Positions 24,832-44,873 of a stretch of 64,000 bases of DNA are shown piece by piece. A program made the translations under genes and the position numbers. The stretch spans positions 1 to 64,000 of the forward strand of contig NZ_ATZA01000022.1 in the NCBI RefSeq assembly GCF_000427965.1, written 5' to 3'. Source of the DNA: Olivibacter sitiensis DSM 17696 (GTDB lineage Bacteria; Bacteroidota; Bacteroidia; Sphingobacteriales; Sphingobacteriaceae). The notes under the pieces were generated by a model, which made no database searches, was not told the DNA's origin, and saw nothing but the letters and a program-made list of their open reading frames with translations. The stretch's first letter is position 1, and each line of letters opens with the position of its first letter.

Positions 24832-26436
24832 ATGATACATCAAAACTTGCTTTTAGTACTTTCGCTGTTCTTCATGATGTCCCTGCTGTACATGCTCAGC
24901 CAGCGACTGAAGATATCTTATCCTATTTTTCTGGTCATTGGGGGACTCGCCATCAGCTTCATTCCCGGCGTGCCTCATATAAGTGTAGAGCCTGATCTTA
25001 TATTTTTGATATTTTTGCCCCCCTTATTGTTTGAGGCTGCTTGGGGTAGTTCTTGGAACCATCTGTGGAATTGGAGGCGGTCTATTCTCATATTGGGTTT
25101 TGGATTGGTATTGGTCACTTCGGCCGCAATTGCTTTTTTTTCAGTTCAAATTATACCGGGATTTACATTGGCCCTCGGTTTTTTGCTTGGGGGCATCATA
25201 TCGCCACCGGATGCTGTGGCGGCTACTTCTGTATTGAAGGGTATGAGCGTACCCAAGAGGGGACTAGCTATTCTGGAGGGTGAAAGTTTGGTGAACGATG
25301 CAGCCTCCCTGACTATATTCCGATTTGCTATTGCAGCTATTTTGACTGGTCAGTTTGTGCTTGAGGAAGCGACCGTCGAGTTCTTTGAATTGGCTGTAAT
25401 GGGTGTATTCGTTGGCCTCGTAATTGCGCATATACTTTATTTTGTATTGCGTTATTGGGTGAAAGGATCCAGTATTACTACTCCTATGACGTTGATAGCT
25501 CCGTATCTAATGTATATCGTTGCCGAAGAATTTGAATGGTCTGGTGTATTGGCTGCTGTGAGCGGTGGGCTTTTTCTGTCTTTTCGGTCTAGTGATTATC
25601 TCAACTACGATACGCGTTTGCAGACAAAGGAAGTGTGGTCTACGGTTGGGTTTCTATTAAATGGTTTTGTTTTTATATTGATCGGATTGGAACTTCCTGT
25701 AATCGTGGAAGGGCTAGGCAGTTATTCAATGGAGGAAGCTATACGTTATGCATTAATCATCAGCGCAATGGTTATTGTTATCCGTATTGTCCTTGTTTAC
25801 CTTTCTGCTTTCATTCCTCGTCTACTTAGCAAAAGAATTAGGGAAAAAGAGCGTAGTCCAGGACTTAAACTACCGTTTATTATCGGCTGGGCAGGTATGC
25901 GGGGAGTGGTTTCGTTGGCATCCGCCTTGGCCATTCCGCTCACGCTAAATAATGGTTCGGAATTTCCTCACCGCAATTTGATCTTGTTTATTACGTTTGC
26001 CGTTATCTTGGTTACGTTGGTCTTTCAAGGACTTACTTTGCCATTATTCTTGAAGCTGCTTAAGGTGGAGGAAGTGGATATCTATATTCCGGAAGAGGAG
26101 CAAATAGAGGCTATTCGATTAGAGTTAGGGAAACAATCGATCGAATATTTGGATACCAACTACAGTTATGAAATGGGGCAATATGAAACAATTGCACGTA
26201 TAAAGGAGCAGCTAGAGCGAAGCGTCGCGGCGGCCGAAGCCACGTCAAATGAAGATGACAAGAAACAAGCGCTAAAGTCCGTTCGTGGGTTATATCGCAA
26301 AATAATGCTTGAACTTGTGTCTTTGCGAAGGCAGGGATTGAATAAATTTCGCTTAGAAAAGAAATACGATGACGAGGTGTTGCGACTGATGGAAAACAAT
26401 CTTGACTTGGAGGAAGCTAGGTTAAATAGGGACTAG
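24832..26436 (+). CDS. Na+/H+ antiporter (CPA1 family)
   Basis: 534-aa cation/proton antiporter of the NhaP/NHE type in the inner membrane. Twelve or so hydrophobic segments fill residues 1-410. Transport-site motifs are visible: FLPPLLFEAAW near 65, GGIISPPDAVAATSVLKG near 122 with the conserved aspartate, LEGESLVNDAASLTIFR near 148 with the ND pair, and GWAGMRGVVSLASALAIP near 350. The last 110 residues form a charged cytosolic tail with predicted coiled-coil character (EQLERSVAAAEATSNEDDKKQ). It stands alone; ion specificity (Na+ or K+) cannot be judged. Confidence 0.9.
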   Translation: MIHQNLLLVLSLFFMMSLLYMLSQRLKISYPIFLVIGGLAISFIPGVPHISVEPDLIFLIFLPPLLFEAAWGSSWNHLWNWRRSILILGFGLVLVTSAAIAFFSVQIIPGFTLALGFLLGGIISPPDAVAATSVLKGMSVPKRGLAILEGESLVNDAASLTIFRFAIAAILTGQFVLEEATVEFFELAVMGVFVGLVIAHILYFVLRYWVKGSSITTPMTLIAPYLMYIVAEEFEWSGVLAAVSGGLFLSFRSSDYLNYDTRLQTKEVWSTVGFLLNGFVFILIGLELPVIVEGLGSYSMEEAIRYALIISAMVIVIRIVLVYLSAFIPRLLSKRIREKERSPGLKLPFIIGWAGMRGVVSLASALAIPLTLNNGSEFPHRNLILFITFAVILVTLVFQGLTLPLFLKLLKVEEVDIYIPEEEQIEAIRLELGKQSIEYLDTNYSYEMGQYETIARIKEQLERSVAAAEATSNEDDKKQALKSVRGLYRKIMLELVSLRRQGLNKFRLEKKYDDEVLRLMENNLDLEEARLNRD

Positions 26437-26600: not shown

Positions 26601-26635
26601 AAAAATCCTGTATCAGTTTACGATACAGGATTTTT
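26601..26635. terminator. Bidirectional terminator between the antiporter and gldM
   Basis: AAAAATCCTGTATC (26601-26614) pairs perfectly with GATACAGGATTTTT (26622-26635) around a 7-nt loop. The A run and T run make it active in both directions. It ends the gldLM transcript directly after gldM. Confidence 0.9.
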
Positions 26636-26661
26636 ATGTATAAGATTTTTTAGTCAGAAGA

Positions 26662-28194
26662 CTAATTTGCGGTAAGTGCTACCGGAGCCAGTTGCCTTGG
26701 TGATCCGTCAGGACCAACTGCGATGATTTGGTCAAATATAACCCTAGCTCCCGGGCTGATGCCGTTCAGTGCATTTTTCATTGCTGGGCTCAGCTGATTG
26801 TTGTTTGCACTTAATACAATCGCATCCGCTCTTGGATTGGCAATGATAAGACTGAATTTAGTGATATTAAACTTGGCGTCAAATTCGAAATTCTCCAACG
26901 TAGCAAACAGTGCACTTTGCGCTTTGATAGCTACAGTTGGCATGGAGCCTCCAGATTTGCCCGCAAACTTAGCAATTGGATCAGGAATACGCTTCACCCT
27001 GAACTCAGTAGTGCTCAACGTTTGTGATTTCCCTGGGGCTACTTCGGCGGTGATGGAAACCTTGGCAGTTCCTGGAGTCGTGGCGCGAACATTATACTTG
27101 CCATTGCTTCCAGATATTGTTCCTCCGCTCATACTCACCTTTATTTTGTCAGCAGGAATACCTGGTGCAGAGACAGAAACCGGATTGTCCACACCGATGT
27201 AGAAGACGTTCATCTTGTCTGGCGATACCACGGCAGATGGTCTTGCTACTGTGTACGATTGCTCTTTTGTAGTATAAGTTTTATCCGTGCCGTCGGTACC
27301 TTTTACAAGGATATTTGCCTTCCATGTGAACGTACCTTCCTTGCTTGTACTTACGGTATATAGGCCTCTTCCATCTTTAGTTGGCAAAGCGCTGCCACCT
27401 ACCGTAACCGTAGGGTTGGATTTACTGTCGTAAGCGGTCAAAAACACCTCTGCTTCATATGGTTGTCCTTGAATGAGGTAGGATGTGGGAGCCACAGCGA
27501 CAGCCTCGAACTGGTCAAGGGTTACAACAGCTTGATCCATTTGACCTAATATGCGTTTGACGACATCCGACTCGGCATTTTTTGCGTCTGCTTGTATTTT
27601 AGATAAAATAGTCATTGCAGCCGTCAAAGGAACGCCTTCCCCGAAATTTACTTGCTCCCAAGATCTTTTGGTACCCACAGCTTTCTTAGGGTCGTTTGCC
27701 TCTAGGGAGAATGTTGCCAATTCAGCATCTTTTGGACCTAGGATCTCGATGAGTTTTTCCCTGGTTTCATTGATTTTGTTTTTCAATTCCGTTGCCTTCT
27801 TACCATTTATCATGATACTTTGGGCAATATCGGTATTGTCTCTCATCTTGATGTCGCCAGTTTCCTCGTTTATTCCACCGCCATCATTTATGAACCGTTG
27901 TTTCAACTCCTCAATCATGGAGTTTAACTCTCCTGCCAATTGAGAAGCTTGTTTTGCTTTTTCATATATGGGCTTTGCCCTTTCTGGGTTATCCTTCAAT
28001 TTTGTCTGTTCAAAACTAGTAAACAGTTGTTCTACGGATGTACTCACGTTCGAAGTTGAGGTCTCCAGACTGTCATTAATAGTTTTGAACGCTTCTAATA
28101 TAGTATCCGAGACATTCAGCGCCAACATTGCTAGTAACACGAGGTACATAATGTTGATCATCTTCTGCCTAGTCGTTTCTTTTCCTCCAGCCAT
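26662..28194 (-). CDS. gldM: Gliding motility / type IX secretion motor protein GldM
   Basis: 510-aa inner-membrane protein whose dimer forms the rotor-like shaft of the type IX secretion and gliding motor, reaching through the periplasm. It starts MAGGKETTRQKMINIMYLVLLAMLALNVSD in two parts: a short cytosolic lead with the motor arginine R9, then one membrane helix (about 14-32). The remaining 475 residues are periplasmic. A helical first domain (about 35-220) is followed by Ig-like domains, including SYLIQGQPYEAEVFLTAYD and VFYIGVDNPVSVSAPGIPADK. Length equals the usual full protein. Its partner gldL lies 52 bp upstream. A strong terminator follows at once, and no gldN is present, which is unusual. 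Confidence 0.94.
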   Translation of the reverse strand: MAGGKETTRQKMINIMYLVLLAMLALNVSDTILEAFKTINDSLETSTSNVSTSVEQLFTSFEQTKLKDNPERAKPIYEKAKQASQLAGELNSMIEELKQRFINDGGGINEETGDIKMRDNTDIAQSIMINGKKATELKNKINETREKLIEILGPKDAELATFSLEANDPKKAVGTKRSWEQVNFGEGVPLTAAMTILSKIQADAKNAESDVVKRILGQMDQAVVTLDQFEAVAVAPTSYLIQGQPYEAEVFLTAYDSKSNPTVTVGGSALPTKDGRGLYTVSTSKEGTFTWKANILVKGTDGTDKTYTTKEQSYTVARPSAVVSPDKMNVFYIGVDNPVSVSAPGIPADKIKVSMSGGTISGSNGKYNVRATTPGTAKVSITAEVAPGKSQTLSTTEFRVKRIPDPIAKFAGKSGGSMPTVAIKAQSALFATLENFEFDAKFNITKFSLIIANPRADAIVLSANNNQLSPAMKNALNGISPGARVIFDQIIAVGPDGSPRQLAPVALTAN

Positions 28195-28246
28195 GCGTTT
28201 TTTTTTCTTTAGTTTATTATAAAAAAATAAGTGTAAAGCAGGGGGC

Positions 28247-29050
28247 TTAGACCCTAGGCTGGTTCAACGCAGAAAGCATGTTGCCGTATATTGAGTTTAA
28301 TGTAGCGACATTCTTGGCGAGTTTGTTGGCTTCTTCTTTGAATTTGGCCGTGTTTTCTGAGGAGTCTGCGAAGTTTTGCAGTGTTTCAGCTAAGTTGGTA
28401 TAGTAGCTGTTGATTTTCTGTAGGTTGCTGCTAGATTCTTTCAATTCAGATTCATAAATGCTGTTCAAAGCACCTAGATTGGTCGCCAGTTTAGTAACTT
28501 GTGTTTGATAGGCTTCCGTGTCGGTTTTGGTTTCGCCTATAGAAGACAAATTACTTGTTGCCTTTTCGAAAGCGATACTCAAACTGTCAAATTTACTACT
28601 TGCGGTCCTAAGTTTTTCCGAGAACTCACGTGTATCTAGCGATGCATCTGCAATTTGGTTGATTGCGCCGATTTTTTCACTAAATACTTTCAGGCCAGCG
28701 CCCAATTGTTCGAAACTTTTTGGTGAGAGATTGGCGTCATTCAGCATTTTGTCCAAAGCTGCGGTACTGCTAGGAGCAGCTGCAACATTTTGCCTTACAG
28801 GCAGTGGGCCGCTATAATCGTCTGCCAATTCTGGATATACTTTTTCCCAATGTGGATCTTCCGCAGGCGGATATAGACCTGTAAGAAAGAAAAGGATGGC
28901 CTCTATTGTCAAACCTGCACCTATGAGATAGGTTCCCAACGAACCTCCCCAGTGGTTGATTTTAAACATTGCTCCAATAATTACGATACTAGCTCCCCAT
29001 GAAATTGCAACGTGCAACCATCCGGGGTTTTTTCCTTTAGCTTTTGCCAT
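28247..29050 (-). CDS. gldL: Gliding motility / type IX secretion motor protein GldL
   Basis: 267-aa inner-membrane proton channel; a GldL pentamer surrounds the GldM helices and powers the type IX motor. Two membrane helices lie at about residues 14-32 and 38-58. Polar residues known to matter in the family are present: K30, H33 and E50 in TIEAILFFLTG. The conserved short linker GLYPPAEDPHWEKVYPELADD follows, then a cytosolic tail of about 180 residues with coiled-coil character (repeats of KFDSLSIAFEKATSNL type). Normally gldK precedes this gene; here the next gene upstream is ugd, on the opposite strand. Confidence 0.94.
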   Translation of the reverse strand: MAKAKGKNPGWLHVAISWGASIVIIGAMFKINHWGGSLGTYLIGAGLTIEAILFFLTGLYPPAEDPHWEKVYPELADDYSGPLPVRQNVAAAPSSTAALDKMLNDANLSPKSFEQLGAGLKVFSEKIGAINQIADASLDTREFSEKLRTASSKFDSLSIAFEKATSNLSSIGETKTDTEAYQTQVTKLATNLGALNSIYESELKESSSNLQKINSYYTNLAETLQNFADSSENTAKFKEEANKLAKNVATLNSIYGNMLSALNQPRV

Positions 29051-29263: not shown

Positions 29264-30655
29264 ATGAGCATTAGTAAAATTTGTTGTATTGGAGCTGGAT
29301 ATGTAGGTGGGCCGACAATGGCCATTATTGCCAAACAGTGCCCTCATATAAGGGTGACTGTAGTAGACCTAAATGAAGCAAGAATAGCTGCATGGAATGA
29401 TCCCGATGTCGAAAAAATCCCGGTCTACGAACCCGGGTTAAGTGCGGTAGTAGCAGAGGCTAGAGGGCGAAATTTGTTTTTTTCAACAGATGTAGAAAGT
29501 GCGATTGAGGATGCTGAGTTGATTTTTATATCTGTAAATACGCCAACTAAGACGTATGGTGCAGGTAAAGGACAAGCAGCCGACTTAAAGTGGATAGAAT
29601 TGTGTGCCCGTCAAATCGCTCGGGTTGCTAAATCGGATAAAATTATCGTTGAAAAATCTACTCTTCCTGTTCGTACTGCCAGTGCGTTGAAGGACATTTT
29701 GCAAAATACGGGAAATGGAGTAAACTTCAGGATTCTGTCTAACCCAGAGTTTTTGGCTGAAGGAACAGCCGTGGAAGATCTTTTTGAACCAGATAGGGTG
29801 TTGATTGGTGGCGACCAAAGCGAAGAGGGGCGAGAAGCCATTGAAGCATTGGTGGAGATTTATGCAAATTGGGTGCCTCGTGAAAGGATCCTTACAACTA
29901 ATATCTGGTCTTCCGAGCTGTCCAAGCTTACTGCTAATGCCTATTTAGCACAGCGTGTTTCTTCTATTAACTCATTGTCAGAGCTTTGCGAGTATACGGA
30001 GGCCGATATAAATGAAGTAGCCAGGGCGATAGGTACCGATAGTAGGATTGGGCCTAAATTCTTAAAGGCATCCGTGGGTTTTGGTGGTTCATGTTTCCAA
30101 AAGGATATCCTAAACTTGGTTTATATCGCCCGTTCATATGGATTGACCGAAGTGGCTGATTATTGGGAGCAGGTCATCATCATGAATGATCATCAAAAAC
30201 GCCGTTTTGCAAACAAGATTATTCAAAAATTATATAATACGGTAAATGGCAAGAAAATTGCGTTTTTGGGCTGGGCTTTTAAGAAAGACACGAACGATAC
30301 CAGGGAATCTGCCGCCATTTATGTAGCCGATCACTTATTGCATGAGCAAGCTAATATTGCCGTTTATGATCCAAAGGTTACGGAGCAACAAGTATTGACT
30401 GATATGGACTATTTGGATACGCGGTCTCCTGAAGAAAACAGAAAGCTCATAAAGACATATCAGGATCCCTATGAGGCATGCAAAGATGCCCATGCGATCG
30501 CCATTTTGACAGAATGGGACGAATTTAAATCATATGATTGGAAGCGGATATACGACAATATGCTCAAACCTGCAAACATTTTTGATGGTAGGAACTTATT
30601 AGACAAGGCTGCATTGCAGCAAATAGGATTTAAGGTTTGGGCAATAGGAAGCTAG
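29264..30655 (+). CDS. ugd: UDP-glucose 6-dehydrogenase
   Basis: 463-aa NAD-dependent enzyme that oxidises UDP-glucose to UDP-glucuronate, a precursor for acidic polysaccharides. It is closer to the animal/plant form than to the short bacterial one: [18 protein letters not shown] at the start, [19 protein letters not shown] near 92, [23 protein letters not shown] near 162, and the catalytic C277 in [28 protein letters not shown] binds the UDP-sugar near 332. It opens the polysaccharide region and is followed 51 bp later by the phosphohexomutase. The two could supply UDP-glucuronate in steps via glucose 1-phosphate. Confidence 0.94.
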
Positions 30656-30706: not shown

Positions 30707-32443
30707 ATGGCTTTGGACACACTTGAAGCAACTGTTAAAACAAGGATAGATCAATGGTTGAGCGGCAATTACGACGAAGAAACCAAGAAGACGATACGGG
30801 AACTCCTGAACGCAGGAAGCTACGATGAATTAACCGACTCTTTTTATAAGGACCTTGAATTTGGTACTGGCGGCCTTCGAGGGATAATGGGCGTGGGGAC
30901 CAATAGGATGAACAAATATACCGTTGGACTCGCTACCCAAGGCTTTGCCAATTATCTAAAGAAGCAAGGCTACAATACCATTAAAGTAGCGATAAGCTAC
31001 GATAGCCGAAATAATTCAAAGGAGTTCGCCCAGACAGTGGCCGACATATTCTCGTCTAATGATATTGAGGTTTATTTGTTCTCTTCTTTGAGGCCTACCC
31101 CCCTTTTATCCTATGCCGTTCGTAAGCTGCATTGCCAGGCCGGGGTAATGCTTACTGCATCGCACAATCCCAAAGAGTATAATGGATACAAGGCATACTG
31201 GAATGATGGAGGGCAATTGGTACCTCCTCATGACGAGGCCGTAATTCACGAAGTGAATCAAGTTTCAATAGAGGATTTGGATTTTGGAGGGAAGCAGGAA
31301 AATATACACCTGCTTAAGGAGGAGCTCGATGATCAATATATTGAAGAAGCATTAAAGCTGAAGCTCAACGCGAAAGCTGTCGAAGAAGCGTCAGATCTAA
31401 AGATTGTTTATAGCCCGATTCACGGAACGGGAATTACCTTGGTACCCAAGGCGCTTAAGGCTTGGGGATTTAAAGATGTGCTGTTGGTGGATGAACAGGC
31501 CGAACCAAATGGCAATTTCCCAACGGTTGTTTATCCAAATCCCGAGGAGAAGGAAGCTATGTCTATGGCATTGAATAAAGGACAGGCTCTTTCTGCCGAT
31601 TTGGTACTAGCGACCGATCCTGATGCGGATAGAGTGGGCGTTGGTTGTAAGAATATAGCTGGAGAATGGCAGCTGCTTAACGGGAACCAAATCGGAAGCC
31701 TTTTGGTAGATTATGTGTTGAGTTCCAAACATGCATCTGGCAATCTGAAGGACAACGACTATGTTTGTAAGACCATAGTCACTACCGAACTTATTGCCCA
31801 GATAGCAAAAGCATATGGAGTGCCAGTGTATGATGTGTTGACGGGATTTAAATATATCGGACAACTGATCACTCAGCGAGAAGGCAAACAGGAGTTTTTG
31901 GTGGGAGGAGAAGAAAGTTATGGTTTCTTGGTGGGGGAGATGGTAAGGGATAAGGATGCGGTGATTTCATGCGTTTTCATAGCGGAGATGGCTGCATTTT
32001 ACAAAACAAAAGGGAAAACCTTGTTTGAAGCGCTGCTAGAGCTATACGTGAAGTATGGATTTTATAAGGAAAAGTTAATATCTGTTACCAAAAAGGGCAA
32101 GGCAGGTGCAGAGGAAATCAAAGCGATGATGGAAAGGCTCAGGCTAGATATGCCAAGGTCATTGGGTGGCTATGAGGTGGCACATGTGAGAGATTATGCA
32201 AATAGCATAGAAACTGATATGGAAAGTCTTGAATCGCGGACCATAGACCTACCTAAGTCTGACGTGCTCCAGTTTATTACTAAAGATGGAAGTGTCATTT
32301 CTGCTAGGCCATCGGGCACAGAACCCAAAATAAAATTCTATTGCAGTGCGAAGATGCCGCTAAAAGATATAGATAGCTACGATGAAGTAAATGGAAAATT
32401 AGACGATAAGATTGACGCCATGATGAAGGATATCTTGTCTTAA
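30707..32443 (+). CDS. Phosphoglucomutase / phosphomannomutase (alpha-D-phosphohexomutase)
   Basis: 578-aa cytosolic mutase of the PGM2-like subgroup that interconverts hexose 6- and 1-phosphates. The phosphoserine is S152 in VMLTASHNPKEYNGYKAYW. The metal loop DPDADRVGVG lies near 305, the sugar-binding loop GGEESYGFLVGE near 402, and the phosphate-binding SARPSGTEPKIKFY near 532. FGTGGLRGIMGVGTNRMN near 50 is characteristic of the longer subgroup. It sits directly after ugd and ends in a clear terminator, so the two form a nucleotide-sugar supply unit. Glucose is the most likely substrate; mannose or ribose phosphates are possible. Confidence 0.9.
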   Translation: MALDTLEATVKTRIDQWLSGNYDEETKKTIRELLNAGSYDELTDSFYKDLEFGTGGLRGIMGVGTNRMNKYTVGLATQGFANYLKKQGYNTIKVAISYDSRNNSKEFAQTVADIFSSNDIEVYLFSSLRPTPLLSYAVRKLHCQAGVMLTASHNPKEYNGYKAYWNDGGQLVPPHDEAVIHEVNQVSIEDLDFGGKQENIHLLKEELDDQYIEEALKLKLNAKAVEEASDLKIVYSPIHGTGITLVPKALKAWGFKDVLLVDEQAEPNGNFPTVVYPNPEEKEAMSMALNKGQALSADLVLATDPDADRVGVGCKNIAGEWQLLNGNQIGSLLVDYVLSSKHASGNLKDNDYVCKTIVTTELIAQIAKAYGVPVYDVLTGFKYIGQLITQREGKQEFLVGGEESYGFLVGEMVRDKDAVISCVFIAEMAAFYKTKGKTLFEALLELYVKYGFYKEKLISVTKKGKAGAEEIKAMMERLRLDMPRSLGGYEVAHVRDYANSIETDMESLESRTIDLPKSDVLQFITKDGSVISARPSGTEPKIKFYCSAKMPLKDIDSYDEVNGKLDDKIDAMMKDILS

Positions 32444-33160: not shown

Positions 33161-34012
33161 TTGAAAACAGTAGTTTTTGGAGGGAGCGGACAGTTGGGGC
33201 AGTGCTTAGCGGAGCAAGTTCAAGGGAACCCCAATTATGTTTTCTTATCCTCAGATGAAGGCAACGTAACAAAGGCTGATCAATTGAGGCATTTGTTTGA
33301 AAAACTTAAACCTGACGTCGTGGTCAACTGTGCCGCCTACACTGCTGTCGATAAGGCAGAAGACGAAATAGACCTTGCCTATGCCATCAACTCACATGCC
33401 GTAAAAAACCTAGCCATATTATCCAAAGAATATAACTCAAAGTTAATACATATTTCGACTGATTTTGTGTTTGAAGGCAATAAGGTTGGATTATTGGCAG
33501 AAGATGATGAATGCAAACCCCAGGGCGTATATGGTGCTAGCAAACTGGAAGGTGAAGAAAATATCCGTGCCATACACAGCAAATATTTTATCGTGCGTAC
33601 AAGTTGGCTCTATTCGGAGTATGGCGGCAATTTCGTGAAAACGATGCTAAGACTTGCAGATAGTAGAAACGAGTTATCGGTAGTGAGTGATCAGGTAGGA
33701 ACACCTACTTATGCGATGGACTTGGCGGCTTTCATCCTTAATTTAATATCGTCCAAAAGCGAAACCTACGGGCTATACCATTATAGTGATATGGGGGTAG
33801 CCAGTTGGTACGATTTTGCGCACTCCATTTTTGACCTAGGAGAAAAAAAAATAAACTTAAGTGCAATTAAGACAAGCCAGTATCCTACTAGGGCTAGGCG
33901 GCCTTTTAATTCCGTGATGGACAAATCCAAGGTAATAGCAACTTTTGGTGAACACATTCCTCATTGGCGTGACAGTTTGCGTATTTGTTTAAAGAATTTA
34001 GTAAAAAAATAA
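33161..34012 (+). CDS. rmlD: dTDP-4-dehydrorhamnose reductase family protein
   Basis: 283-aa short-chain dehydrogenase that, by family, reduces dTDP-4-keto-L-rhamnose to dTDP-L-rhamnose for polysaccharide synthesis. The nucleotide loop GGSGQLGQ is at residues 7-14, NCAAYTAVDKAE near 57, ISTDFVFEG near 100, and the catalytic YGASKLEGE near 124 with its Y and K. The usual STDYVFDG is here STDFVFEG. The start codon is TTG at 33161, since the Rossmann strand begins at once and a stop lies in frame 18 nt upstream. The other rhamnose genes (rmlA, B, C) are absent here, so a different 4-keto sugar is possible. Confidence 0.85.
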   Translation: MKTVVFGGSGQLGQCLAEQVQGNPNYVFLSSDEGNVTKADQLRHLFEKLKPDVVVNCAAYTAVDKAEDEIDLAYAINSHAVKNLAILSKEYNSKLIHISTDFVFEGNKVGLLAEDDECKPQGVYGASKLEGEENIRAIHSKYFIVRTSWLYSEYGGNFVKTMLRLADSRNELSVVSDQVGTPTYAMDLAAFILNLISSKSETYGLYHYSDMGVASWYDFAHSIFDLGEKKINLSAIKTSQYPTRARRPFNSVMDKSKVIATFGEHIPHWRDSLRICLKNLVKK

Positions 34013-34058
34013 TTGCTTATAGGTGGTCGTAATATTTAAAAATAGACTTTTTTATTGT

Positions 34059-34772
34059 ATGAATTTGAAAATCGATAAATGGTTGATTCTGTTGGCGGTA
34101 GCGATGCTTTGGTGTATTCCTGTCAAATCACAGAGCATGCTTGAGGAGGTGTCCTATGAGGATCTGGAAACACTGATTAACACTGCCAAGGAAAACTATC
34201 CAAAAATCCACGCTATGAGCAAACAAGTGGATATTGCCAACGTGGAAATAACAAGTGCTAAATTGGGGTGGTTTAAGCCGCTATCGATCATGTATTATTA
34301 CACACCTTCATGGAGCTGGGCTGGGACTGACGATAGATTCTTTATGTTCAATGGCTTTCAATTTGGGATAATGCTCAACGTAGGCACATTGTTGCAAACA
34401 CCATCGGAAATTAAGAAAGCTAAATTGTTCAAGGATTTTGCGGAATTAAACGGCGAGGAATATGTCCTATCCTTAACAAAGGAAGTGAAGAATAGGTATT
34501 ACGCACTTATTGGTGCAAAAAACATGCTTAACGTTCGGATGAAAGCCAGTATTGATGCAGCGACCCTGCAAAAGGACATGAATTTTCGATATCAAAAAGG
34601 AGAGGTGTCGTTTGAGGACTTGATAAAATATAACAGTGACGTAACCCAGCACAGCATAGATAGGATTATAGCTGAACAGGATTACCTCACTAGCGTTGCC
34701 AACTTGGAGGAGTTAATAGGAGTACCTTTAGACACAGTCATAAAAATTCAACTACACAATGGAGATAACTAA
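34059..34772 (+). CDS. TolC-like outer-membrane protein, half length
   Basis: 237-aa exported protein with a signal peptide (about residues 1-26, ending VKSQS). One set of TolC-type long helices follows: LETLINTAKENYPKIHAMSKQVDIANVEI, given here in parts as LETLINTAKENYPK and KQVDIANVEITSAK, then EYVLSLTKEVKNRYYALIGAKN and YQKGEVSFEDLIKYNSDVTQ. A full outer-membrane efflux protein has two such repeats in about 420-490 residues, so this is a half-size form. The start is ATG 34059; an upstream TTG adds 12 residues before the signal peptide. It overlaps the Wzc-like gene by 14 nt, which suggests the two act together in polymer export, in place of a Wza channel. Confidence 0.72.
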   Translation: MNLKIDKWLILLAVAMLWCIPVKSQSMLEEVSYEDLETLINTAKENYPKIHAMSKQVDIANVEITSAKLGWFKPLSIMYYYTPSWSWAGTDDRFFMFNGFQFGIMLNVGTLLQTPSEIKKAKLFKDFAELNGEEYVLSLTKEVKNRYYALIGAKNMLNVRMKASIDAATLQKDMNFRYQKGEVSFEDLIKYNSDVTQHSIDRIIAEQDYLTSVANLEELIGVPLDTVIKIQLHNGDN

Positions 34773-36918
34773 ATATTTTAAGCTTTTGTTAAAGAATAAG
34801 TACCTGTTGGTATTGATTCCTTTGGCTGCGGTAGTGATTACCTATTTCCTGGTTCAGAATTTGCCTGATGTTTACAAGTCCAACGCGCAAATTTCAGCCG
34901 GTCTGGTAGATCGGACTCAAAATATTATCAATGCGAGAGATGAGCTTTCTGACCAAGCAGTCAATCAACAGTTTAGCAATATGTTGAGTATTATGGAGCA
35001 AAGCTCTGTACTGAATATGGTCACATATCGCCTGCTGAGACACGATTTAGGCAATCCTGTTCCTTTCCGTAAGATTCCGGAGAAGTTTGATTTTCCGGGG
35101 AAGAAAAGGCTAGAGCTGATGGATGTGATAGATCGGCTTTATGAAAGACCTAGTGATTTGAAAGATATCAAAGCTTCTGCTGACTATAAAGTATTGACTG
35201 AATTTGCAGAGGTAATGAAGTACGATGTCAAGAGCCTACGGAGCAAATTGGAAAAATTCAGGATACAAAATAGTGATTATATAAATATTGAGTTTACTTC
35301 CGAGAATGCGCAACTTTCTGCTTTTGTGGCCAATGCCGTAGCGGAAGAATTTACCAGGTACTATAATTCGTTATTGAAAGATAGCCAGAATAATTCTGCC
35401 GATTTTCTAGGAGATTTAGTGAAGCAGCGGAGATTTGAGCTAGACAGTTTGACGCGCTTGTTAAGAGATTATAAAATTCAAAAAGGCATCCTTAATTTGG
35501 CTGACCAAAGTAAAACGCTGAATGGTCAAATTGCTGACTATGAAAGTCTTCGGGAAGCAAATAGAAAAAGCGTGGTATCTTCTGCTGGTGCTGTCAGCAA
35601 AATTGACCAAAAGTTTAACCCCAAGACTTTGGGTTATTACGAATCTTCTATATATGGTTTGAACCAACAAATCGTAAACGACCAGCAGCAGATTGATTTA
35701 TTGACTAGGCAATATGTAGAAAGTGGTTTCAAGACCAATATCAAGAAGCAGATTGATTCCGTTAAGAAGCATTTGGAAGGCTTGGTAACCGCAGCTTCTG
35801 AGAATTATCCATACAATCCGTTAGTTGCAAAAAGCGACTTGATAGGCAAAAAATTGCAATTGCAGGTGGAAGGTGATAAATCTTTTTACAGTACGGAATC
35901 TATTAACGAAGAGTTGGAACGATTGAACAGGAAATTCACAGGACTTGTGCCCCATGAAGCCGTTATTCAATCGTACGAAAACGATATTATGATTGCTGGG
36001 CAGGCCTATTTGGATGCACTGAATAAATATAATCAGGTTAACCTGCAAAATAAGACGGCAACGAAAGTGCGTTTGGTAGAGCCAGCCTCTCCCAACAAGG
36101 CCGAACCATCTAAGAAGGTGTTGTATATCGTGTTTTCGGGTGTTGTCAGCTTGTTCTTCTGCTTGTTGGTGCTGTTTATTATATTCCTTCTTGACAATAC
36201 CATTCGTACTCCGCTGGAGCTTCAGCGTGCCACAAAGCTTCCAGTATTGGGCTCATTCAGCCGTATCAGTGATCCTTCACTGGACATACAGCAGGTATGG
36301 GAAGGAAATACAACCAGTAGCGAGGCCCTGTCTTTCAAAAATGCACTGAGAGCGTTTCGTTTTGAAGCGCTGAATGCCATGGTACCTCCTTCCAAGATCA
36401 TGTACATCACCAGTATGATGCCCAATGAAGGAAAAACGCTCATCAGTTTGAGCGTGGCCTATGCTTATCTGCGAACAGGCCTGAAGGTATTGCTCATAGA
36501 TGGCAATTTTTCGCATTCGAGCATAACCAAAAAATTGGGATTGACGGATTATATTGAAGACTACCTCAATAAGGAAAAATATATAGACTATGATAATATA
36601 AAGTATGGAAAGCCATTGCTGAAAATATTGGGTAATCAAGGAAATGACGAATCACTCTATGAAGTGGCTCCTAAAACATCCATTGATGAGGTCTTTGCTA
36701 AGTTTCAGGAGGTTTTTGATCTTATAATTATTGAATCTGGCCCATTGGTGAAAAAGAACGAGGCCAAGGAATGGTACCATATCGGTGGTACGGTAGTGGC
36801 TGTTTTTCAGGCGGATCAGTCGATTGACAGTAAAAAGGAGCAGATGATCGAATATTATAGAAGCCTAGGAAATAATTTTGGCGGCTGGATTATGACGAAA
36901 GTGAAAGCAAAATCGTAG
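34759..36918 (+). CDS. Wzc/GumC-like chain-length protein with degraded kinase domain
   Basis: 719-aa inner-membrane polysaccharide co-polymerase. A first membrane helix (about 14-32), a Wzz domain, a long periplasmic coiled-coil part and a GNVR-type region end at a second helix (about 453-476). A cytosolic P-loop domain (about 520-719) follows. Walker A is MPNEGKT near 555. Walker A' is VLLIDGNFSH where active kinases have DxDxR, and the Walker B site is LIIIESGP with E in place of D. There is no tyrosine-rich tail. It is therefore likely to set chain length or gate export without phosphorylating itself. It overlaps the TolC-like gene by 14 nt; a GT2 gene follows 3 nt later. Confidence 0.85.
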   Translation: MEITKYFKLLLKNKYLLVLIPLAAVVITYFLVQNLPDVYKSNAQISAGLVDRTQNIINARDELSDQAVNQQFSNMLSIMEQSSVLNMVTYRLLRHDLGNPVPFRKIPEKFDFPGKKRLELMDVIDRLYERPSDLKDIKASADYKVLTEFAEVMKYDVKSLRSKLEKFRIQNSDYINIEFTSENAQLSAFVANAVAEEFTRYYNSLLKDSQNNSADFLGDLVKQRRFELDSLTRLLRDYKIQKGILNLADQSKTLNGQIADYESLREANRKSVVSSAGAVSKIDQKFNPKTLGYYESSIYGLNQQIVNDQQQIDLLTRQYVESGFKTNIKKQIDSVKKHLEGLVTAASENYPYNPLVAKSDLIGKKLQLQVEGDKSFYSTESINEELERLNRKFTGLVPHEAVIQSYENDIMIAGQAYLDALNKYNQVNLQNKTATKVRLVEPASPNKAEPSKKVLYIVFSGVVSLFFCLLVLFIIFLLDNTIRTPLELQRATKLPVLGSFSRISDPSLDIQQVWEGNTTSSEALSFKNALRAFRFEALNAMVPPSKIMYITSMMPNEGKTLISLSVAYAYLRTGLKVLLIDGNFSHSSITKKLGLTDYIEDYLNKEKYIDYDNIKYGKPLLKILGNQGNDESLYEVAPKTSIDEVFAKFQEVFDLIIIESGPLVKKNEAKEWYHIGGTVVAVFQADQSIDSKKEQMIEYYRSLGNNFGGWIMTKVKAKS

Positions 36919-38141: not shown

Positions 38142-39605
38142 ATGTTCTCAACTTTTTCTGACGGGGATAAACCAAATTTAAGAACACTCTTGTTTGTTGC
38201 ATTTGTGCTTCTTTCCGTTTCATTGATCAGTGTGTTGACCATTACATCATTGACGAGTGCGTTTGCTTTCGCTTTGGCGGCTCCTATAGCTGTCATTATC
38301 CTTATATTCGTTTTCAGGGACCCTAGGCTGGGTTTTTGTTTATATCTGATTTATTGTTTTATGCTGCCAGGCATCATGCGTAATTTGGGCATTTCGTCGT
38401 TGGGACCTGGCATGGAGATTATACTGGGTGTTACCTGGCTTTCGATATTGGTGCAACGCAAGGAGTATCACTGGGAGAACCTCAGCAACGATTATATGGC
38501 GTTGATCTTGGTCTGGTTTATCATAAGCGTGTTTCAGGTCGTAAATCCAACGGATGCGAGCATCAAAGGTTGGTTGGCAGAGTTTCGGTTTACCGCACTG
38601 AATTGGATTATGATTGCCCCGCTGGCATTTGTTTTATTCAATAGGAAAAAGGACTTGAACAGGTTTTTCTTGGCTATATTTTCCTTATCCCTGCTGGCAT
38701 CTCTGTATGCCATAAAGCAATATTTGTTTGGTGTTTCGGAAATGGAGCAATTGTGGCTAAATAATGGCGCAAATTTTACGCATGTCATTTTTGGGCGACT
38801 ACGTATGTTCTCATTCTTTACGGATGCTGGACAGTTTGGGGCTTCTCAAGCGCATATGGCATTGATGGCAATTATCCTGTCATTTGGACCTTTCTCACGA
38901 AAGATAAGGTTTATCTTAGTTCTATTGTCGGCCATTTTCCTGATAGGCATGCTCATTTCAGGTACGCGGGGAGCCTTTTTTACCTTGATGTCTGGCGGTA
39001 TGGTGTGGTTGTTGCTGACGAAAAACTTTAAGACCCTATTTATCGGTACCATCATGGTCGTTGGTTTTGTCGTGTTTTTGAAATATACCAGTATAGGTAG
39101 CAGTAGTTATCAAATTGAACGATTGAGAACAGCATTGGACTTTAATGATCTATCATTCCAAGCCAGATTGGAAAACCAGAAGAAACTAGCTGAATTGATG
39201 GAAGACCTTCCTTTTGGTGGTGGATTGGGTGTCTCAGGAGCAAATGGGACGCTTTATAATTCCAGTAATCCACTTGCCAGTATTCCGCCAGATAGCTATT
39301 GGGTAAAGATATGGGTGATGTATGGCGTAGTGGGACTGGTTATTTGGTTTAGTATCATTTGTTATATCATTGGTAAGTGTTGTGGCATTTCATGGAATTT
39401 GAGAGATGAGAAATTGCGTGTGAAGATCATTGCGCTGACTGCTGGAACCGTTGGCCTTTTTGTCAGTAGCTATGGCAATGAAGTGATGAATTCAGTTCCA
39501 TCCTGCATCGTTTTGTATCTATCTTGGAGCTATGTGGTACTGTCTCCTGCCATGGATGGGAAAAAGGAAGACGAATATGTTAGTTTGAAACAAAAAGACA
39601 AGTAA
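38142..39605 (+). CDS. O-antigen ligase / Wzy-like polymerase
   Basis: 487-aa polytopic protein with about 11-12 hydrophobic segments and one long periplasmic loop (about residues 315-390). The Wzy_C motif SGTRGAFFTLMSGG lies near 270-283, as in O-antigen ligases and exopolysaccharide polymerases. ENQKKLAELMEDLPFGGGLGVSG follows in the loop, given here as the conserved region before the last helices. In a Wzx/Wzy pathway it joins repeat units on the periplasmic side. Sequence alone does not separate polymerase from ligase. The nearby Wzx and Wzc-like genes favour polymerase. Confidence 0.82.
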   Translation: MFSTFSDGDKPNLRTLLFVAFVLLSVSLISVLTITSLTSAFAFALAAPIAVIILIFVFRDPRLGFCLYLIYCFMLPGIMRNLGISSLGPGMEIILGVTWLSILVQRKEYHWENLSNDYMALILVWFIISVFQVVNPTDASIKGWLAEFRFTALNWIMIAPLAFVLFNRKKDLNRFFLAIFSLSLLASLYAIKQYLFGVSEMEQLWLNNGANFTHVIFGRLRMFSFFTDAGQFGASQAHMALMAIILSFGPFSRKIRFILVLLSAIFLIGMLISGTRGAFFTLMSGGMVWLLLTKNFKTLFIGTIMVVGFVVFLKYTSIGSSSYQIERLRTALDFNDLSFQARLENQKKLAELMEDLPFGGGLGVSGANGTLYNSSNPLASIPPDSYWVKIWVMYGVVGLVIWFSIICYIIGKCCGISWNLRDEKLRVKIIALTAGTVGLFVSSYGNEVMNSVPSCIVLYLSWSYVVLSPAMDGKKEDEYVSLKQKDK

Positions 39606-42729: not shown

Positions 42730-43548
42730 TTATTCTACGGTCTTCCACCGGAACTTTGTTGTCATGATGCCTTTTGGAAACTCCTTTCCCATGCGGAAGC
42801 CAAGAAAATATTTGGGAGCAATCACCTGTTGTCCTTTTTTCGTACTTAAGTATGCTGCCCACCAAGAGAAAGTACTATTGGATATAATGGCTATATCTGC
42901 GTTCATAATAATTTGAAAGTCAATAATTTCACTGTTATTTGAGTAGAAATAGTTTTGACGATTTCCAAAAAAGGACTTGACCGTTGCTATATCGTCACTT
43001 ACGAAAAAGATTCGATAACTGTCCAAATCGCCCAACTCCTTCAATTGCCTTTCGTAATACGTCATTGGGAGGGACAGGTCTCTTTTATAGTGGTTTTTGT
43101 AGTCCGTCAGACGGATGTGTACGGCAATATTTTTTTTAGCGTCATCGAAGAAATATTTACCGTAGCTATCGTTAAAGAGCGTTATATACTTTCTTTTTAA
43201 GCGTGGCTTGTTCCGCTCTTCCAATTGCCGATAGTAATAATCCGTTTGCCAATAGCCGTGATAAATCTCCCGGTAGCCGGGTTCAACAGGTTTAGGCGCT
43301 AGGAAATTAACGTGATAAATGTGTTTGAAGGTAAAAATCTGAGTGATCAATTTCGTTATCAAGGTATAAAGCTTGGTGTGAAAAAGCATGTTGGGGAGCC
43401 ATCCAATATAGAAATAGCGCTGAAAATAAGCGTGATTTGGATAGAGGAAAAAGTAATATTTCTTTGGGTTCTTCTGTTTGAGATAACGCCAAAAGCAATA
43501 TTGAAACAACTGATTGCCAAGACGGCCCTTAAATTCTACGCCAATCAT
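42730..43548 (-). CDS. Family 11 glycosyltransferase (alpha-1,2-fucosyltransferase-like)
   Basis: 272-aa GT11 protein. Motifs are GRLGNQLFQYCFWRYLK at residues 8-24, VHIRLTDY near 142 (family HxRxxD site that binds GDP-fucose) and SNSTFSWWAAYLS near 224. Enzymes of this family put fucose on galactose by an alpha-1,2 bond. The second arginine of the usual HVRRGDY is leucine here (HIRLTDY). The gene overlaps the flippase stop by 4 nt (ATGA). No GDP-fucose synthesis genes are in the window, so the donor must come from elsewhere. Confidence 0.85.
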   Translation of the reverse strand: MIGVEFKGRLGNQLFQYCFWRYLKQKNPKKYYFFLYPNHAYFQRYFYIGWLPNMLFHTKLYTLITKLITQIFTFKHIYHVNFLAPKPVEPGYREIYHGYWQTDYYYRQLEERNKPRLKRKYITLFNDSYGKYFFDDAKKNIAVHIRLTDYKNHYKRDLSLPMTYYERQLKELGDLDSYRIFFVSDDIATVKSFFGNRQNYFYSNNSEIIDFQIIMNADIAIISNSTFSWWAAYLSTKKGQQVIAPKYFLGFRMGKEFPKGIMTTKFRWKTVE

Positions 43549-44873
43549 TTCTTTTCTTTATTTAGGAATAATTTATCGATTAGGCTTGGATAGAACTGCC
43601 AAGCATAGATCCAGGGAGCCCACCAGTTTACTTTATACATTCGATGCAACATATATTGAGATAGAATAAAGCCTATGATATTGGCTGTTAAGGTAGCGTA
43701 CGCGGCCCCAAGTATACCGAAATGACGTATGAAGGTGAAATTGAGGACGATGTTTATGCTTGCCGTGGCCAGAACGAGGAAGAAGTTCGTTTTCGCTTTT
43801 CCCACTGCCTCAAGCATGATGCCCACTTGTCGTCCGTAAGGAATGAATATGACGAACAGCAAAGTGATATTCAGCAAGGGAGCGGCATCTTCGTAGGTAG
43901 CGCCAGCGAGTAAATGGATGACTTGATCGCCAAAGATATATATGCCCAGCATAGCCGGTACGAGCAGGGCGAGGACACTGCCTACAGATTTTTCATATAA
44001 ATATTTCACTGAGGAGCTGCCTTTCTCTTGGCTACGTTTGGCACCCTGTGGAAATACGATGGTGGCCATGGCATTGGTTGGGATTTCTACCAGGTTGGTG
44101 ATGCGAATCGCCAAGTTGTAGGATGCCGCTGCAGATTTGGACAGGAGAGCACCAAGCATCCATTGATCGATATTGTTTGCCAATGAAGAACTGATAGAGC
44201 TTCCAAAGGAATATTTGCCAAAATTTAAGAGCTTTTTTACCCAATGGAAATCTAAATACCTGCTAAAATGTAGGTGTCGATTGGTAACCAGCCACGCAAA
44301 ATAGGTACAGAGAATAGCCGAGCCAATTTGCAAATAGAGCAACTGGCGTAGACTGGGCACTACTTTATAGATATAGCAATATCCCACAAATAGGAGCAAG
44401 ATGGCTTGCTTTGCTGTAATGGAAACAAAATTGCCTTTAAAGCTGAAATTAGCGAGTTCGGTTGCGTTCATGATATTTTGTAGTCCAGAAACAAAGAAGA
44501 CGATCATATACAGGCATAATAAAGCACCGAAATCTTCATAAGCATAAATGCGGCTCAAAAATGGGCCGAGTGCCAAAACCAATAGGATGAGAATGGACGT
44601 AACCGTGAGACTGATGGCTAAGGAGGAAGTAAGTATCCGTTTTTTTTCTTGTTCAGTACCAGCTGCTAAATGCTTCACTAAGGCATTTTGTACCAGTCCG
44701 TTTCGCAACATTTCCAGGAAACTAACGGTGCCAACCAATAAGACCCATGCTCCGTATTCTTCCTTACTGAGAATACGTATCAACAACATGAAATTCAAGA
44801 AAGCCAACAGCACATTCATGCCGTTTTGCATCAAATTGATGAATCCCGATTTGATCCAATAATTGCTTTTCAT
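43545..44873 (-). CDS. Polysaccharide flippase (Wzx type)
   Basis: 442-aa integral membrane protein of the MOP superfamily that flips lipid-linked repeat units to the periplasm. Twelve hydrophobic segments are visible. The N-terminus (MKSNYWIKSGFINLMQNGMN) and helix 2 with SKEEYGAWVLLVGTVSFLEMLRNG, shown here by SKEEYGAWVLLVGTV, are typical of Wzx proteins. The conserved loop after helix 8 (FPQGAKRSQEKG) also fits. ATGA overlaps join it to the genes on both sides. With the Wzy-like gene in the opposite block it completes a Wzx/Wzy pathway. Confidence 0.88.
   Translation of the reverse strand: MKSNYWIKSGFINLMQNGMNVLLAFLNFMLLIRILSKEEYGAWVLLVGTVSFLEMLRNGLVQNALVKHLAAGTEQEKKRILTSSLAISLTVTSILILLVLALGPFLSRIYAYEDFGALLCLYMIVFFVSGLQNIMNATELANFSFKGNFVSITAKQAILLLFVGYCYIYKVVPSLRQLLYLQIGSAILCTYFAWLVTNRHLHFSRYLDFHWVKKLLNFGKYSFGSSISSSLANNIDQWMLGALLSKSAAASYNLAIRITNLVEIPTNAMATIVFPQGAKRSQEKGSSSVKYLYEKSVGSVLALLVPAMLGIYIFGDQVIHLLAGATYEDAAPLLNITLLFVIFIPYGRQVGIMLEAVGKAKTNFFLVLATASINIVLNFTFIRHFGILGAAYATLTANIIGFILSQYMLHRMYKVNWWAPWIYAWQFYPSLIDKLFLNKEKK

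Follow-up and report, generated by a model that had tools for sequence, protein, structure and literature searches.

Among known systems, one of the nearest to the locus analysed here is the core of the type IX secretion system (T9SS), which consists of GldKLMN (PorKLMN) and PorG. In this core, GldL and GldM form a proton-driven rotary motor of 5:2 stoichiometry, and the GldM shaft extends to a hub at the outer membrane, from which energy is distributed to the translocon and the gliding apparatus (PMC10202324, PMC10994853). GldJ and GldO of Flavobacterium johnsoniae, which are paralogues of GldK and GldN, also belong to the T9SS/gliding apparatus (PMC10202324). In Myxococcus xanthus, the AglRQS motor serves two paralogous complexes: Glt, which is used in gliding, and Nfs, which moves Wza-exported polysaccharide over the spore surface (PMC3858216).

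The machine described below is composed of a GldL-GldM pair of a distinct clade (LM2) and a GldK-GldN pair of a second type (K2N2). It resembles the T9SS core in that all four proteins are homologous to its components and match TIGR03513, TIGR03517, TIGR03523 and TIGR03525, the motor residues are conserved, and a PorG-like barrel gene is often located upstream of K2N2. It differs from the core in that its proteins form separate clades, its genes are dispersed or arranged as K2-N2-(X)-L-M rather than K-L-M-N, and it is found both in genomes that lack SprA and type B CTD cargo and in exopolysaccharide (EPS) operons. Like GldJ/GldO, K2N2 consists of ring-subunit paralogues that accompany one GldLM motor, but it occurs without any SprA. 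In Agl-Glt/Agl-Nfs, a single motor that is also PMF-driven and broadly of the same class serves two paralogous envelope complexes, which parallels one LM with two KN hubs; the likeness is in logic only, given that the motor and hub families differ and that AglRQS-Nfs acts post-export in sporulation. The likeness to Wzx/Wzy-dependent EPS export (Wza-Wzc) lies in the position of wza and wzc directly upstream of porG2-gldK2-gldN2, and to our knowledge no PMF-driven trans-envelope motor is part of that system. Searches of the open-access literature turned up neither a SprA-less GldKLMN nor GldKN genes in EPS operons.

The gldL-gldM unit and its flanks

The window, that is, the whole stretch of 64,000 nucleotides from Olivibacter sitiensis DSM 17696 that was analysed, contains the following features:

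24832-26436, Na+/H+ exchanger gene, convergent with gldM
26601-26635, strand not applicable, perfect 15-bp hairpin with A/T flanks, resembling a bidirectional intrinsic terminator (-17.6 kcal/mol, z = -7.5)
26662-28194, minus strand, gldM, LM2-clade PorM/GldM rotor and shaft, 510 aa (ORF; TIGR03517 and four Pfam GldM domains)
28247-29050, minus strand, gldL, LM2-clade PorL/GldL motor stator, 267 aa (ORF; TIGR03513 and PF22827)
29264-30655, plus strand, ugd, UDP-glucose/GDP-mannose dehydrogenase, divergent from gldL, where the EPS locus begins (PF03721/PF00984/PF03720)
30707-32443, plus strand, phosphoglucomutase/phosphomannomutase (PF02878-02880)
33161-34012, plus strand, rmlD-like dTDP-sugar reductase of the EPS locus, read from the translation and used as an EPS seed
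34023-34772, plus strand, member of the outer membrane efflux protein (OEP) family, EPS locus (PF02321)
38142-39605, plus strand, Wzy/O-antigen ligase family polymerase (PF04932)
43545-44873, minus strand, Wzx-type polysaccharide flippase (PF13440/PF01943)

Both motor proteins scored above the curated NCBIfam cut-offs (GldL, TIGR03513, E = 7e-57; GldM, TIGR03517, E = 3e-111) and the flanking genes were those of the Na+/H+ exchanger and ugd, which confirmed the sequence-only reading of gldL and gldM as an intact, stand-alone two-gene unit. The terminator that it had placed after gldM was recovered as the perfect 15-bp hairpin, located ∼26 bp beyond the stop codon and not listed by a simple terminator scan, and ugd was indeed found upstream of gldL on the opposite strand. 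The motor residues that it had named also held in an alignment of 94 homologues: K30 and E50 of GldL were invariant (one gap each), H33 of GldL was present in 83, and R9 of GldM in all 94. The pair is homologous to the solved GldLM structure 7SAX, and the conserved membrane Glu (L) and Arg (M) of 5:2 PMF-driven motors of the GldLM/ExbBD/MotAB type were both found, as E50 and R9. The neighbouring EPS locus, which had been recognized from the sequence, was borne out by the family matches of ugd, pgm, Wzy and Wzx; it starts with ugd, followed by pgm, and extends to ∼54 kb in the window. Within it, a 719-aa chain-length-determinant-like protein (34759-36918) adjoins the OEP gene and had no Pfam match at 1e-5.

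One motor and two GldK-GldN pairs in the genome

O. sitiensis AW-6T was described as non-motile, with a genome of 5,053,571 bp in 110 scaffolds (PMC4149018). The genome-wide profile search revealed one GldL, that of the window, and two GldN, each with a GldK upstream, on contigs C14 and C23. The gldK and gldN genes, whose location elsewhere was one of the two options of the sequence-only reading, were found as two pairs, while the second GldL that it had also considered was not found in this search. The K1N1 pair (contig C14, ∼58.8-61.1 kb) showed a gldK1-gldN1 spacing of 24 bp, with L and M cleanly missing. Its upstream neighbours were those of canonical gldKLMN loci, namely a gene resembling that of the DUF4271 protein by size and place and a hemD-like gene, both read from the sequence. 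The canonical T9SS locus of O. sitiensis has retained gldK1-gldN1 and lost its own gldLM. The K2N2 pair (contig C23, ∼97.1-99.5 kb) lay downstream of wza and wzc in the same orientation; K2 scored just above its cut-off (360 against 350 bits) and N2 just at its cut-off (85.6 against 85.9 bits). Chance or an assembly break as the cause of the split was ruled out because gldLM, K1N1 and K2N2 all lie well inside contigs.

O. sitiensis also encodes SprA, together with two proteins carrying a type B CTD. A T9SS is therefore expected in this species, and the window LM would be the only motor available to it. The components sought for a T9SS (SprA, K1N1, CTD cargo and an LM motor) were all present, and the sole LM was that of the window. 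Judging from the absence of another GldL, the window LM2 probably works with K1N1 too.

Phylogeny and gene order in relatives

The trees were built by "quick" searches without bootstrap, with L and M concatenated in the motor tree, and the support of the LM2 clade was given as SH-aLRT. The LM2 clade (37 rows, SH-aLRT 100) contained every Sphingobacteriaceae LM linked to K2N2, the window LM and the stand-alone LM of one Sphingobacterium (G141), and none of the LM from K1-L-M-N1 loci in the same tree. The clade nested beside the canonical LM of genus g20, which suggests that LM2 probably arose from a canonical T9SS motor. Chitinophagales were rejected as the source of LM2, given that their LM fell outside the LM2 clade although their KN grouped with K2N2. 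In the KN tree, K1N1 and K2N2 formed separate, fully supported clades. The K1N1 of O. sitiensis grouped with K1N1 of other Olivibacter; its K2N2 and LM2, though unlinked, both grouped with Mucilaginibacter K2N2/LM2, and these shared tree neighbours, which indicate co-inheritance, tie the window LM to K2N2.

In most of the family, K1-L-M-N1 is contiguous. The four other Olivibacter-group genomes showed the order K2-N2-X-L-M, with K1N1 located elsewhere or, in strain XZL3, absent. This cassette was flanked on both sides by EPS genes in at least three of the four, and a ugd homologue adjoined it in Olivibacter XZL3 and O. jilunii. In Sphingobacterium and a sister genus, LM either adjoined a PorG-like Y-K2-N2 (convergent or on the same strand) or stood alone, and Mucilaginibacter sp. 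OK283 (G088) carried both full sets, K1-L-M-N1 and K2-N2-X-L2-M2. A simple split operon, with a single gldLM and gldKN at another site in all relatives, was thus contradicted by the contiguous K2-N2-(X)-L-M of relatives, several of which are without a T9SS translocon. Of the two alternatives drawn from the window, a split T9SS or a second motor, each stood in part: the K1N1 locus did lose its LM, and by phylogeny the window LM is a second machine's motor (LM2 clade, linked to gldK2-gldN2), but, counted by GldL, this genome has only one motor, which is not literally a second one here. Neither a mere splitting of the T9SS nor a second motor of unrelated kind describes the window gldLM; the unit is real, not an artefact, and more than a split operon.

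Further arrangements were observed. In Desertivirga and Pedobacter sp. SYSU D00535 (L058-L063), each genome contained two separate K2N2 pairs and a single GldL, and one of the pairs adjoined a phosphoglucomutase gene; pgm beside gldK2-gldN2 is thus also seen in Desertivirga and Pedobacter. An orphan site of another genome (L052; G067:C11, 8068-10080) carried a GldN-like domain in an unusually long frame of ∼670 aa, and no gldK was detected there.

Retention of the machine without SprA

SprA was missing in 14 of the 151 genomes of the family. Seven of these 14 kept a full-length GldL (LM2) and exactly one GldN, of type 2, and five had lost L and N altogether. Two near-identical genomes of the Sphingobacterium group (G064 and G082, genus g16; L073, L074) kept a canonical K1-L1-M1-N1 operon, with SprA and type B CTD cargo absent, so that LM retention without the translocon is not unique to type 2. 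Among the named genomes with K2N2, SprA was not found in 28 of 28 Sphingobacterium nor in Olivibacter sp. XZL3, and it was present in Mucilaginibacter, Desertivirga, Pedobacter, Pararcticibacter and two other Olivibacter.

Type B CTD cargo was found in 0 of 11 SprA-less versus 9 of 9 SprA-positive genomes (Fisher 6e-6, kinship not corrected for). Counts of the type A CTD model were dropped as a T9SS marker given that SprA-less genomes matched too: nearly all of 20 genomes gave one short match (∼145-190 aa) regardless of SprA, and the model alone overcalls T9SS cargo. PorU was dropped as well, with no match above the cut-off in 19 of 19 genomes, SprA-positive ones included; its absence has been reported for Sphingobacteriia (PMC7323717).

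K2, N2, L2 and M2 were intact in many SprA-less species, and among these species the dN/dS values of the four genes were 0.009-0.08 at high synonymous divergence, as expected of strong purifying selection. Retention and constraint without SprA or type B cargo indicate that the machine is kept for a purpose other than SprA-dependent secretion. INDEPENDENCE from T9SS, in the sense that the LM2-K2N2 machine does not need the translocon, is therefore well supported. The core engine is under selection in at least 29 species without the secretion pore, so finding it in a genome is no proof of a T9SS.

Exopolysaccharide genes beside K2N2 and the proposed role

K2N2 loci were dereplicated at 70% GldN identity (n = 22) and EPS-type genes were sought within 6 kb. 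At least one was found at 8 of 22 K2N2 loci, 0 of 33 K1N1 loci and 1 of 38 random stretches (K2N2 against random, p = 0.0009); two or more were found at 5 of 22 K2N2 loci versus 0 of 38 random stretches (p = 0.005). The K1N1 control is weak, as synteny of this locus extends over the whole family. The random stretches serve better as a null, although a few genomes contributed several of them, and the EPS seeds were taken partly from the K2N2 and window loci themselves. In an independent Pfam census of the K2 flanks, sugar-nucleotide epimerases/dehydratases ranked top, and PGM and Polysacc_synt_2 were also high.

The order wza-wzc-porG2(Y)-gldK2-gldN2 was found on one strand in 14 Sphingobacterium loci, with gaps of <10 bp between wza and wzc and <45 bp within Y-K2-N2, and O. 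sitiensis itself showed wza-wzc-gldK2-gldN2. One of the 14 belongs to the Sphingobacterium genome G141, which combines the absence of SprA and of type B cargo with Y-K2-N2 inside an EPS operon and a stand-alone LM2 as in the window. Genes X and Y encode small barrels of the outer membrane, both uncharacterised. Eighteen of the 21 Y members matched PorG at E < 0.01 (best 2e-7), and Y failed the curated cut-off of NF052316 (26.5 versus 130 bits for the first member); as judged from these profile scores, Y is PorG-like, not PorG. Profile searches of X and Y against the PDB gave nothing beyond a weak porin match for X (E 0.013).

On balance, we lean towards the reading that the window LM is the motor of a second, translocon-independent GldKLMN-type machine, which likely powers EPS handled by Wza-Wzc and in O. 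sitiensis probably drives the T9SS too. LM2 would be a proton-driven motor turning a GldK2-GldN2 outer-membrane lipoprotein/periplasmic ring, which would often be paired with the PorG-like barrel or another small barrel. K2N2 with the PorG-like Y would then be another hub, through which the same motor would act on EPS export or on surface deposition of the Wza-Wzc polymer, and the single LM2 of O. sitiensis would drive the T9SS via K1N1 and the polysaccharide hub via K2N2. The EPS role of LM2-K2N2, read from gene neighbourhood, is plausible, and we regard it as an evenly balanced matter. The full proposal, that GldLM with a dedicated GldK2N2(-PorG2) ring powers EPS export or deposition without T9SS, with one O. 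sitiensis motor driving both hubs as a Bacteroidota counterpart of Myxococcus Agl-Glt/Agl-Nfs, is put forward tentatively, at slightly less than even confidence. If the polysaccharide role is true, GldLM would be a general outer-membrane power supply with swappable hubs, and T9SS-free Sphingobacterium would be a clean setting in which to study the KN ring and LM motor alone.

The T9SS-independent GldKN2-LM2 hub and motor could also be real with an output other than polysaccharide, such as another outer-membrane cargo, Tol-Pal-like envelope stability or movement of surface structures, the EPS neighbours being partly coincidental. The purifying selection without SprA stands on its own whatever the output, no EPS gene was found near K2N2 in 14 of the 22 dereplicated loci, and both barrels are uncharacterised. 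In many Mucilaginibacter and several Sphingobacterium, EPS genes likewise do not adjoin the LM2 cassette. Co-occurrence with EPS genes in relatives, which had been raised from the window for the motor pair, holds for at least three Olivibacter-group cassettes; among the dereplicated K2N2 loci, it holds for 8 and not for the other 14. Against an output of this kind stand the EPS enrichment over both random stretches and K1N1 loci and the operon-like arrangements of Sphingobacterium and O. sitiensis, and we consider it rather unlikely.

Relation to the T9SS

An ordinary, rearranged T9SS, in which K2N2 is an accessory ring and the window LM is the T9SS motor pair moved away from gldK/gldN, is improbable in our view. 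It would agree with SprA, type B CTD cargo and a single GldL in O. sitiensis, with the additional, LM-free KN pairs of Desertivirga and Pedobacter, which are T9SS-positive, and with GldO and GldJ as known extra ring subunits in Flavobacterium (PMC10202324). However, selection maintains LM2 and K2N2 in species that have neither SprA nor type B cargo, and the trees show LM2 tracking K2N2 rather than K1N1; this reading is already hard to hold for the entire LM2 clade. Decaying T9SS remnants kept by chance after SprA loss can be dismissed for type 2: decay does occur, as in the five SprA-less genomes without L and N, and G064 and G082 retain K1L1M1N1, but many species have all four of K2, N2, L2 and M2 intact, with dN/dS values of 0.01-0.08 over large synonymous distances, which contradicts it.

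Two minor observations concern related loci. In SprA-positive members of genus g16 (L079-L085), the canonical-type GldL was short (∼214-235 aa), without part of the C-terminal region kept by LM2 GldL. In Pararcticibacter amylolyticus (L056/L162), a third gldK-gldN pair, highly divergent and lacking LM, was located directly downstream of a gene for a repetitive protein of 2000 residues with a T9SS-tail-like end, and this pair may form a cargo-dedicated ring.
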